Shown: positions 34,460-37,406 of the stretch, piece after piece
Layout: the number at the start of each line of letters is the position of its first letter
Numbering within the stretch: position 1 is the stretch's first letter
Source: Balneola sp.
Lineage (GTDB): Bacteria > Bacteroidota > Rhodothermia > Balneolales > Balneolaceae
Length of the DNA stretch: 64,000 nt
Direction of reading: 5' to 3'
Assembly (NCBI GenBank): GCA_017640785.1
Contig: JAEPPZ010000007.1
Location: 124,001-188,000 of the forward strand
The notes under the pieces: generated by a model
Told to the model about the DNA's origin: nothing
Database searches by the model: none
What the model saw: only the letters and a program-made list of their open reading frames with translations
Made by a program: the position numbers and the translations under genes

Positions 34460-35062
34460 TCAAAAGCTGTTTCTGCTGGCAAAGGCGCGACTGAGGGTTG
34501 CTTCATCAATAAATTCCAGCTCTGTTCCCATAGGGATACCATAAGCAATTCGAGTTACTTTAACTTCATAAGGCAACAATAACTTGTTGATGTAGTACGA
34601 AGTAGCCTCGCCTTCAGCATCAGGGTTGAGCGCCAGGATTACTTCTGTAATTTCTTCGCCGCCGCCAACACGTTTTAGTAGTTCCTGAATTCGAATGTTG
34701 TCAGGGCCCACGTTATCCATTGGTGAAATTACTCCACCTAAAACATGATACCGCCCACGAAATTCGTTTGTTTTTTCAATGATATAGACGTCATTGAATT
34801 CTTCAACAACACAGATGCTACCATTTTGTCTTTTTGCGTTTTCGCAAATATTGCATGGATCGTTATCGCTTACATTTCCACAAATTTCACAGCGAGTCAC
34901 TTTATTTTTCAGGTCGATGATCGCGTTTGCAAGCCTAAGGGCATACTCATCATTCTGTTTTAATAAATGGATGGCAATTCTTTGAGCCGATTTCCTGCCC
35001 GTACCCGGGAGTTTTGCAAGCTGTTCAATAGCTCGTTCTAAATATTCTGAGGTTATCTGCAA
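34460..35062 (-). CDS. recR: recombination mediator RecR
   Basis: RecR works with RecF/RecO to load RecA onto gapped DNA. The 200-residue protein has an N-terminal helix-hairpin-helix (LAKLPGTGRKSAQRIAIHLL), a zinc finger with Cys58, Cys61, Cys70 and Cys73 (CEIC...CNIC), a TOPRIM domain (SICVVEEFNDVYIIE, LALNPDAEGEATSYY) and a Walker-like C-terminal YGIPMGTELEFID. The start appears to be TTG; no ATG is near. It follows ybaB and dnaX, a conserved recombination/replication cluster. Confidence 0.96.
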   Translation of the reverse strand: MQITSEYLERAIEQLAKLPGTGRKSAQRIAIHLLKQNDEYALRLANAIIDLKNKVTRCEICGNVSDNDPCNICENAKRQNGSICVVEEFNDVYIIEKTNEFRGRYHVLGGVISPMDNVGPDNIRIQELLKRVGGGEEITEVILALNPDAEGEATSYYINKLLLPYEVKVTRIAYGIPMGTELEFIDEATLSRAFASRNSF

Positions 35063-35079
35063 TTTAATTTTGAATTATA

Positions 35080-35121
35080 AATTATGAATGTTGAATTTTC
35101 TCTAATTCAACATTCATAATT
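35080..35121. repeat. 18-bp perfect inverted repeat between ybaB and recR
   Basis: AATTATGAATGTTGAATT (35080-35097) and AATTCAACATTCATAATT (35104-35121) pair perfectly across a 6-nt loop (TTCTCT). It fills most of the 74-nt spacer. An additional direct copy (ATTCAACATTTATAATT) follows. Such a hairpin may block, or merely mark, the ybaB/recR junction. Similar AT-rich sequence occurs near radC and after topA. Confidence 0.7.
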
Positions 35122-35136
35122 CAACATTTATAATTT

Positions 35137-35484
35137 TTATAGTCCAAACTTAGAAAGGTCCATTCCGGGAATTCCACCGCCGGGAATCATTCCTTTATAA
35201 GCTTCCTGCATTTGAGATTTTGCAGCTTCATCCGCTTGTTCAAGAGCTTTGTTAACACCGGCTACAACCAGATCTTCCAGCATTTCTTTGTCACTGGGAT
35301 CAATAACATCCTCATCAAATTTGATGGAAAGAATTTGACGAAGCCCGTTAGCTTTTACTTTTACCATTCCGCCGCCTGCTTCAGCTTCTACGATCACTTC
35401 AGCTAACTTAGCCTGACTTTCCTGCATTTTTGCTTGCATTTCCTGAACTTTGCCGAACATATCGGCCATGTTAAAATCACTCAT
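35137..35484 (-). CDS. ybaB: YbaB/EbfC nucleoid-associated protein
   Basis: This small DNA-binding protein (115 residues) has the family core MADMFGKVQEMQAKMQESQA, then GGGMVKVKANGLRQILSIKF and VDPSDKEMLEDLVVAGVNKA-like text (IDPSDKEMLEDLVVAGVNKA). It is followed by a Gly/Met-rich tail. YbaB binds DNA as a tweezer-like dimer. It sits between dnaX and recR, as in many bacteria. It is separated from recR by the 18-bp inverted repeat, and from dnaX by about 134 nt. Confidence 0.94.
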   Translation of the reverse strand: MSDFNMADMFGKVQEMQAKMQESQAKLAEVIVEAEAGGGMVKVKANGLRQILSIKFDEDVIDPSDKEMLEDLVVAGVNKALEQADEAAKSQMQEAYKGMIPGGGIPGMDLSKFGL

Positions 35485-35618
35485 AACTAAAAATTTTGGT
35501 TGAATTTTTTGATTACTTATTTAAGCCGCAAAAGCACGAAGACACGGAAAACTAGTATTCTTAATCTAAAGATGTCGTGTCTTAAATCTTGCGTCTTTTA
35601 TCTTAAATCTTATTTAAA

Positions 35619-37406
35619 CTAATATTCTAACTCTGCTCCAAACCGTTCTACCAAACTACGTATCATCGGATCTTTTTGCTGAATCTCCTTAAATCGTTCG
35701 TAAGGATTTCGAGCCTTTGTTTGTTTAATTTTCTGTGACACTTCTACGTTAAAACGAAGCGCCACTCCAATACATTCCTGCAATTTTCCTGCCAATTCCT
35801 TGGCTTGTTCGTCCAACATGGTCTTTGCTAACTGATTGTCACATTCTAATGACAATTCAGTCCCTTTCAGTTTTACAGGAAGAGCACGTTCGGTTTGCAT
35901 CTTTAAAATTGAAGACACAGATCCATTCAAAGAATCAATAAACTCCGGCCATGCACTTTTGATGTCTTCGATCTGTAAATTCTTAGCTTCTTGAGAGTGC
36001 TGAGTTGTAGCTTCAACTTTAATTTCGGTTTTTACTTCTTCTTTGCTCGCTTCATTTACTTGTGAAAACCTGGTTTGCAAAGCGGGTGTTCCGATATCAA
36101 ATTCGTCATCAATTACTTTTGTCGCTTCCTGTTCTTGTTCAGAAGATGGAAGTTCTTCTTCAACTACTGATGAAGACTCTTCAGCAGATGCGGTCACATT
36201 TTCTTTTGCCGGTTCAGTAGCAGGGTCTTCATTCTTTTTCTCCTGAACAGCAGGTTTCGATTCCGGAGAAGAAAGGGAGGCTAAGTTCTTAGAGTTTTTT
36301 TTTACTTCCTCAAGATCGGACAATAGTTTAGCAAGACTCTCGGAACGCTCCATATGAATGAGCTTAAGGAGAGTGATCTCAAATTGGATTCGAGGTTGGT
36401 TAGCATCTTTGATCTTTATCTGCGCTTCAGAAACTAAATGTAACATGCGCATCAGATCATCTCTGGAAAAATCAGAAGCAAACTGCTTGTATTTTGATTT
36501 TGTTTCTTCTGAAGCCTCAACCATGTAAAGTTGTTTACTGTGATGGGCGATGTATAAGTTTCTCAGATGTTCGGTAAGTCCGATCAAAAATTCCTGTATA
36601 TCATAACCTTCCTGAAGCAACGTATTGATCAACTCCAGACCTTGATCGGCATCATGTTCCTTTACACAGTTCATAAACTGAAACAGTCGATCGGTGCCAA
36701 CTACATTTAAGGCCTGAACTAACTCATTGTGTGTAATGGTGTCTCCACAAAAAGCAATGGCCTGATCCATCAAACCTAACGCATCTCTCAGCGCTCCATC
36801 AGCTTTTTTTGCTATCACATGAAGAGACTCGTCATCAATAGAAATGTTTTCATCTACTGAAATTTTTCGGAGTCGTCTTACGATCTCATCTACAGCTATG
36901 CGTTTAAAATCGAAGCGCTGAACGCGTGAGAGAATAGTCGGAAGAACTTTGTGGGGCTCGGTGGTCGCAAAAATAAATATAGCATGCTCAGGAGGTTCTT
37001 CCAGAGTCTTTAGTAAAGCATTGAACGCAGCTTTAGAAAGCATGTGAACCTCATCAACAATAAAAACCTTGTAGCGCCCATTTTGAGGAGGAATCCGAAC
37101 AGTTTCTCTCAAATGATGAACATCGTCCACTTTGTTGTTTGATGCGGCATCCATCTCAACCACATTCAGTGTTTGGTTGAGCGATTCACCATCCACGCTG
37201 TTATCAATTTCATTGATGGTTCTGGCAAGAACACGTGCCATAGTTGTTTTTCCAACTCCACGCGGTCCACAGAACATATAAGCATGTGATAAACGATTTT
37301 GTTTGATGGCGTTCATCAACGTAGAGCTTACGTGATCCTGAGAAACAATATCCTCAAAATTTTGCGGGCGATATTTTCTGGTAAGTGCGCGGTAGTTTTC
37401 TGACAT
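35619..37406 (-). CDS. dnaX: DNA polymerase III subunits tau/gamma (DnaX), with candidate slippage site
   Basis: DnaX is the clamp-loader ATPase. The ATG at 37406 gives MSENYRALTRKYRPQNFED; the longer frame from 37442 is unlikely. The ATPase has Walker A GPRGVGKT (47-54), DEVH at 118 and sensor SRVQRF near 160. Residues 64-83 replace the usual Cys4 zinc module with a Cys-free loop. Domain III ends near residue 365. A run of nine A follows (codons 368-371, VKKN), and both frameshifts end at once: one deletion gives TLRT then stop, one insertion gives K-L then stop. The downstream acidic linker and C-terminal tau domain (about 470-595) are otherwise intact. ybaB and recR follow. Confidence 0.94.
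   Translation of the reverse strand: MSENYRALTRKYRPQNFEDIVSQDHVSSTLMNAIKQNRLSHAYMFCGPRGVGKTTMARVLARTINEIDNSVDGESLNQTLNVVEMDAASNNKVDDVHHLRETVRIPPQNGRYKVFIVDEVHMLSKAAFNALLKTLEEPPEHAIFIFATTEPHKVLPTILSRVQRFDFKRIAVDEIVRRLRKISVDENISIDDESLHVIAKKADGALRDALGLMDQAIAFCGDTITHNELVQALNVVGTDRLFQFMNCVKEHDADQGLELINTLLQEGYDIQEFLIGLTEHLRNLYIAHHSKQLYMVEASEETKSKYKQFASDFSRDDLMRMLHLVSEAQIKIKDANQPRIQFEITLLKLIHMERSESLAKLLSDLEEVKKNSKNLASLSSPESKPAVQEKKNEDPATEPAKENVTASAEESSSVVEEELPSSEQEQEATKVIDDEFDIGTPALQTRFSQVNEASKEEVKTEIKVEATTQHSQEAKNLQIEDIKSAWPEFIDSLNGSVSSILKMQTERALPVKLKGTELSLECDNQLAKTMLDEQAKELAGKLQECIGVALRFNVEVSQKIKQTKARNPYERFKEIQQKDPMIRSLVERFGAELEY
36295..36303 (-). promoter_or_regulatory. A9 slippage run inside dnaX (candidate gamma-forming site)
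   Basis: On the coding strand GT-A9-CTC encodes V-K-K-N at residues 368-371. Losing one A reads K-K-T-L-R-T then TAG; gaining one reads K-K-K-L then TAA. Thermus thermophilus dnaX makes its short gamma form by slippage at a nine-A run, so the same mechanism is plausible here. No Shine-Dalgarno-like element was checked beyond the run itself. Confidence 0.6.

Follow-up and report, generated by a model that had tools for sequence, protein, structure and literature searches.

The dnaX gene of a Balneola sp. genome carries, directly behind the part that encodes the clamp-loader domains, a run of nine adenosines on its coding strand. Such a run raises the question of whether a single gene supplies two proteins, a full-length tau and a short gamma subunit, and, if so, whether RNA polymerase or the ribosome would slip on it. 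The gene lies in a stretch of 64,000 nucleotides, referred to here as the window, and was compared with the dnaX genes of the surrounding family, order, class and phylum. The comparison points to programmed transcriptional slippage on the run, as in Thermus thermophilus, as very probably the way in which both gamma and tau are made. In this mechanism, RNA polymerase would stutter on the nine As (A9) and release mRNAs with varying numbers of As. Transcripts with nine As, or with nine plus or minus three, would be translated in full to tau (595 aa); those with other numbers would run into a stop a few codons on and yield gamma of 372–375 aa, a clamp-loader ATPase that lacks the linker and the tau tail. 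Both products would then be present in the cell and available to the replisome, and natural selection would retain a run of at least nine As together with the stops just behind it.

The dnaX Locus and Its Poly-A Run

The dnaX frame opens with an ATG and comprises 595 codons, with the features listed in Table 1. Around the run, the coding strand reads GAG GAA GTA AAA AAA AAC TCT AAG AAC TTA GCC. Downstream of dnaX follow a YbaB/EbfC gene (35137–35484) and recR (34460–35062), all three on the minus strand (34460–37406), an order that is common in bacteria. An AT-rich inverted repeat (35066–35135; arms of 32 nt, 84% complementary, 6-nt loop) separates the YbaB/EbfC gene from recR, and the 18-base core of its arms is matched exactly at one other genomic site, on contig C17, the window itself lying on contig C16.

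Table 1. Features of dnaX and its poly-A site, in positions of the window.
Feature	Position	Strand	Remarks
dnaX coding sequence, zero frame encoding tau, 595 aa	35619..37406	-	TIGR02397 dnaX_nterm, 399 bits (cut-off 250)
Clamp-loader part, domains I–III	36357..37394	-	Residues 5–350 by TIGR02397 (NCBIfam); domain III ends at residue 360 by Pfam
Putative A9 slip site, GTA AAA AAA AAC, codons 368–371	36295..36303	-	Conserved in 80/88 family genes
TAA predicted to end a gamma of 372 aa made from an A10 mRNA (or by a ribosomal shift of -1)	36289..36291	-	
TAG predicted to end the product of an A8 or A11 mRNA, 374/375 aa	36281..36283	-	
Tau-only part, acidic linker and C-terminal region, missing from the predicted gamma	35619..36294	-	Homologous tail in a shifted frame of two g20 genomes

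A first-pass annotation, made from the letters of the window, had placed a nine-A run in dnaX just past domain III and had stated that the gain or the loss of one base would lead to a near stop and a product of 372–375 residues. The run lies where it was described, and the predicted lengths agree as well, with 372 aa for an mRNA with ten As (A10), 374 aa for A8 and 375 aa for A11. When codon 368 is counted as the first, the stop is the sixth codon in the A10 frame and the eighth in the A8 frame. The computed mass of the A10 product is 42.6 kDa, where the annotation had given about 41 kDa, next to 67.5 kDa for tau.

Taken by itself, the run is not informative. The window contains a single A9 or T9 as opposed to a mean of 10.3 in dinucleotide shuffles, so that long runs are depleted here, and the rarity of the run was considered as an argument of its own. 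It was rejected on the basis of a genome-wide search, in which 68 overlapping A9/T9 hits correspond to 58 distinct runs and 17 of the 30 entries examined (16 of 28 distinct runs) lie inside open frames of at least 100 codons, some of which are possibly spurious. Since the genome tolerates A9 and T9 in other open frames, a lone A9 is unremarkable, and it is the conservation of the run in relatives that is remarkable.

Conservation of the Run in Balneolaceae

Among the 92 Balneolaceae genomes sampled, dnaX was obtained from 88. The run occupies one and the same column in 80 of these 88 genes, as A9 in 69 and as A10 in 11; it starts at the third codon position in 80/80 and at an identical offset in 79/80. 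Only two other runs of nine or more As occur in the dnaX genes of the family, in a total of 160,286 coding bases (with two genes of genus g20 left out). The first-pass annotation had named synonymous changes that break the run in close relatives as the observation that would speak against a slip site. Such breaks are not seen: the run has length 9 in all eight genomes of the window's own genus, and A9 or A10 prevails in the family at the count given above. The eight genes without the canonical run belong to genus g19 (seven) and genus g8 (one), and half of them (L068, L083, L085, L095) hold a displaced A9 or A10 further down the linker.

The conservation extends to the choice between synonymous codons, as revealed by a codon alignment of 75 of the 78 family genes with tau in frame (three were dropped due to a late match start), in which pairwise protein identity goes down to 0.65 among sampled pairs. 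Because the genes are related, the site is fairly judged only against other columns within these genes. At each of its two lysine positions the codon is AAA in 75/75 genes, as opposed to nine other conserved lysine columns where the share of AAA ranges from 38% (27 AAA to 44 AAG) to 88% (66 AAA to 9 AAG). In the codon preceding the run, which encodes Leu, Val or Ile, the third base is A in all 75 genes; across the 81 conserved columns of these three residues, the site included, the median share of A-ending codons is 13% and the next highest value 49%.

Furthermore, the stops behind the run are closer than codon usage would provide. In the -1 frame, which corresponds to an A10 transcript, a stop lies within three codons past the run in 66 of the 78 tau-in-frame family genes (29.8 expected from synonymous shuffling downstream), and in the +1 frame, corresponding to A8 and A11, 76 of 78 genes terminate within 12 codons (33.7 expected from synonymous shuffling). 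The -1-frame stop is the nearer one, at a median of two codons. Quick termination in both shifted frames thus seems to be under selection. A close stop in the +1 frame would be expected if mRNAs of mixed length are translated and is not needed for a -1 ribosomal shift, which counts in favor of transcriptional slippage.

These observations bear on the simplest alternative, namely that two conserved lysines and codon bias in an AT-rich gene produce the run and that no short product is made. The tolerance of A9 and T9 in other open frames is compatible with it, as is the chance of obtaining the run when the protein sequence is held fixed, which amounts to 0.17 as the median for the window's genus and to 0.07 per gene as the median of 78 family genes. 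However, multiplying the medians of 18 genera gives 1.4e-22, a value that is overstated since the genera are related but still far from chance. The codons of the site, which are exclusively AAA or A-ending where other columns vary, argue in the same direction, as do the near stops in the two shifted frames and the existence of relatives in which tau is encoded only in a shifted frame (see below). Codon bias is regarded as an extremely improbable explanation.

A different pattern was noted in the seven genomes of genus g19 (L038, L068, L077, L079, L080, L083, L085), where TTA AAA AAG or TTA AAA AAA occurs near codon 358, about ten codons upstream of the usual site. Four of the seven contain A_AAA_AAG, the heptamer of Escherichia coli dnaX, a -1-frame stop follows two codons on in six, and in three the sequence behind the motif may fold, with energies of roughly -12 to -17 kcal/mol. 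By codon usage, the motif has an estimated chance of about 0.25 per gene and is therefore not very improbable; three members of the genus also hold an A9 further down the linker. Perhaps g19 has changed to ribosomal frameshifting.

Distribution Across the Order, Class and Phylum

Outside the family, the run is patchily distributed. The other families of the order are mostly without it in this sample, the canonical form being found in 2 of 34 loci (33 genomes; L151 is cut off at the site). Two loci of family f3 in the same order (L156, L158) have A9 at the site with near stops in both frames, and five loci of other families of the order (L131, L142, L146, L152, L154) show an A9–A10 that sits deeper in the linker, some 12 to 40 codons from the usual place. 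Two of the latter, L142 and L154, share a Pro-Glu-Lys-Lys-Asn-Pro context, and in both the A11 frame ends at once. For the class beyond the order, 30 loci were hand-picked from 93 matching genomes; none of them has a run of at least eight As, and one (L343) is cut off before the site. A distant relative with 46% identity (L232) has A9 at the same place.

The wider phylum, which we take to be Bacteroidota in the GTDB sense, was sampled outside the class by 81 evenly drawn genomes, of which 79 gave a dnaX match and two (G241, G262) yielded none above the threshold. The longest A run within the first 80 codons after domain III measures 2–7 in 16 of the 79 genomes and 9–11 in 63; a length of exactly 8 was never observed. 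The lengths of linker runs in these genomes hence show a threshold. The 63 long runs start at codon position 1, 2 and 3 in 9, 35 and 19 genomes, respectively. The 16 genomes without a run include all sampled members of families f21 (4/4) and f32 (5/5), and the remainder consists of 63 run-bearing genomes, in which the genomic frame encodes tau (32) or gamma (31). Near stops accompany the 32 tau-in-frame genes, where the frame with one A more ends within 12 codons of the first codon of the run in 31 and the frame with one A fewer in 28.

It could be supposed that the run merely lowers tau output or makes the ribosome pause and that the short protein is a functionless by-product. E. coli is able to grow without gamma, which is compatible with this possibility. 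However, the stops are kept close to the run in both frames in the family, and the protein would be cut soon after domain III in the 63 run-bearing phylum genomes, both of which agree more with a defined product than with waste. In addition, a review describes gamma as essential to Caulobacter and as important to E. coli for resisting UV (PMC5009743). A role-less by-product is accordingly judged very unlikely.

Swaps Between Tau and Gamma in the Genomic Frame

The 31 phylum genomes with gamma in frame provide further comparative evidence. In these genes the zero frame stops within 12 codons of the first codon of the run, and the tau part is found in a shifted frame. It is reached by a shift of +1 nt, that is by one more A, in 30 genes and by -1 nt in one; the latter (L303 from genome G293, family f30) is the only one that needs one A fewer, or two more. 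All 31 shifted tails match the tail of one of the other 48 genes, with best phmmer E-values between 3.1e-122 and 1.1e-12, the tail of L293 being cut by the contig end. The same arrangement occurs within the window's own family, where both genes of genus g20 (L096 and L098 from G089 and G090) combine A10 and a zero-frame stop with a tau tail encoded only in the A11 frame (E-values of 7.8e-32 and 1.8e-34).

A maximum-likelihood tree, quickly built from 106 rows (79 from the phylum, 22 from the family and 5 from the class; SH-aLRT support only; three family rows with displaced runs scored as tau in frame), requires no fewer than 14 switches between the tau-in-frame and the gamma-in-frame form. 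Some close relatives in family f27 are one A apart and carry the opposite product in frame, as in the pairs L294 (A9) and L300 (A10) or L325 (A9) and L339 (A10). Homopolymer errors in assemblies could add a few false swaps; the gamma-in-frame form is common to whole groups, for example to all five sampled genomes of genus g95. It is thus likely that, in much of the phylum, selection keeps a slip-prone run of 9–11 As rather than a particular reading frame, that the genomic frame has swapped between tau and gamma repeatedly, and that both proteins would be made throughout by RNA polymerase slippage.

The close f27 pairs would also be expected if the run were a contingency locus, whose length is altered by replication slippage so that tau is toggled between cells by phase variation. 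The distribution of lengths points elsewhere, with nine As in each genome of the window's genus, nine or ten only in the family wherever the run is present, and gamma in frame shared by whole groups such as g95. An essential replication gene is also a poor subject for switching. Phase variation is therefore given little credit, and the reading as transcriptional slippage, with swaps between frames on an evolutionary scale, is retained.

Transcriptional Slippage or Ribosomal Frameshifting

The most serious alternative is that gamma arises as in E. coli, by programmed -1 ribosomal frameshifting on the A run (at A_AAA_AAA or A_AAA_AAC), and that slippage by the polymerase is minor. Several observations fit this proposal and count against transcriptional slippage. 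By their length, all the runs also contain an in-frame A_AAA_AAN heptamer. The -1-frame stop is the nearer of the two. In 30 of the 31 gamma-in-frame genes outside the class, and in the two genes of g20, tau is reached in a direction that fits a ribosomal shift of -1 equally. In the window gene, GAGGAAG stands directly upstream of the run. The genome apparently has a single tRNA-Lys (UUU), according to the 30 of 34 tRNA loci that could be typed; of the remaining four loci, one was seen as Tyr inside L354 and three, of 82–88 nt, were left without a type. As this is the situation of E. coli, the tRNA argument made for Thermus is not applicable here. The eight family genes without a canonical run, the scarcity of the run in the sampled order and class, and the tolerance of A9 and T9 in other open frames of the genome also count against the slippage reading.

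The elements that support frameshifting in E. coli were searched for in turn. No conserved downstream fold was detected, as the 60 nt behind the run gave a z of -0.23 across 80 genes against -0.19 in control windows, and -0.34 in the window gene. Four-mers resembling a Shine-Dalgarno (SD) sequence occur upstream in 31/80 genes, a fraction that stands against 18.7% at control positions before codon choice is controlled; with 25.0 genes expected from codon choice, there is no clear excess. The Rfam model of the E. coli element (RF00382) matched in none of 19 relatives including the window's genome, with at most 150 candidates scored per genome and a positive E. coli control, and gave no hit in 36000–36600 at E-values up to 10. 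The best Rfam hit in that region, FTX_2 (E 0.12), lies far under its cut-off and was taken as chance.

The runs themselves are also poorly explained by a ribosomal shift. A slippery heptamer needs only six or seven As, yet a longest run of 8 is found in 0/79 phylum linkers and the 63 runs of 9–11 As occur in every phase of the reading frame. A_AAA_AAG is absent at the run of the window, where A_AAA_AAA and A_AAA_AAC are present instead, and AAG at the second lysine of the site, which would create the E. coli heptamer, occurs in 0/75 aligned genes. Finally, the stop in the +1 frame is conserved along with that in the -1 frame. Ribosomal frameshifting as the main source of gamma is consequently considered unlikely. 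The comparative evidence favors transcriptional slippage, with the short product predicted from the same sequences.

Comparison With Known Systems

Transcriptional slippage at the Thermus A9 run, ribosomal frameshifting in E. coli and 17 dnaX genes split into two open reading frames are already in print. Among the titles and abstracts listed from an open-licence library, none dealt with Balneola dnaX or with the phylum-wide pattern, and one further source gives dnaX as present or absent (PMC3971599). The breadth of the run and the repeated swaps may be new to the specialist: what was one well-studied case in Thermus and 17 predicted genes would become the apparent common rule of a phylum. The natural variants, with A9, A10 or A11 and with tau or gamma in frame, could serve to separate transcriptional from translational recoding, and they bear on why bacteria need gamma at all. 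For annotation, dnaX frames of about 365–450 codons in such genomes should not be labeled as truncated or as gamma only.

A closely similar arrangement is found in T. thermophilus, where RNA polymerase slips on nine sense-strand As, an efficient length for slippage on As or Ts, and where tau lies in the genomic frame with near stops in both other frames (PMC1088944; PMC5009743). As in Thermus, the Balneola gene bears its A9 on the sense strand, past the clamp-loader domains; its unshifted frame gives tau, either shifted frame soon meets a stop, and the predicted short product lacks the tau region. Conservation of the run at the nucleotide level was considered here as an additional trait, one that published accounts do not use to define the Thermus type. 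The two differ in that Balneola belongs to another phylum, in that one tRNA-Lys was found as opposed to the two reported for Thermus (PMC5009743), and in that mixed numbers of As and a 1:1 ratio of the products are features described for Thermus, the mixed mRNAs and the short product of Balneola being putative. The E. coli RF00382 element is similar insofar as a close stop in the -1 frame ends gamma in the corresponding part of dnaX. In contrast to it, the Balneola site has nine As instead of A_AAA_AAG and shows no RF00382 match, no conserved stem-loop and no clear SD excess beyond codon choice. Poly-A frameshifts in the dnaX of Blochmannia endosymbionts, which slippage may correct, lie inside the tau-only region (PMC3017870) and were set aside as a different case.

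In the 17 two-ORF dnaX genes predicted with GeneTack in 12 genera, it is gamma that the genomic frame encodes (Antonov et al., 2013; PMC3711429). A run of 7–10 As lies between the gamma and tau parts in 12 of them, three of these 12 being from named Chlorobi relatives; nine genes are A10, and transcriptional realignment was proposed (PMC3711429). The Balneola gene resembles these genes in the poly-A between the two parts. Unlike them, it encodes the complete tau of 595 aa in its zero frame, and the gamma-in-frame form that they represent is found here in genus g20 of the same family and in 31 of the 79 genomes sampled across the phylum.
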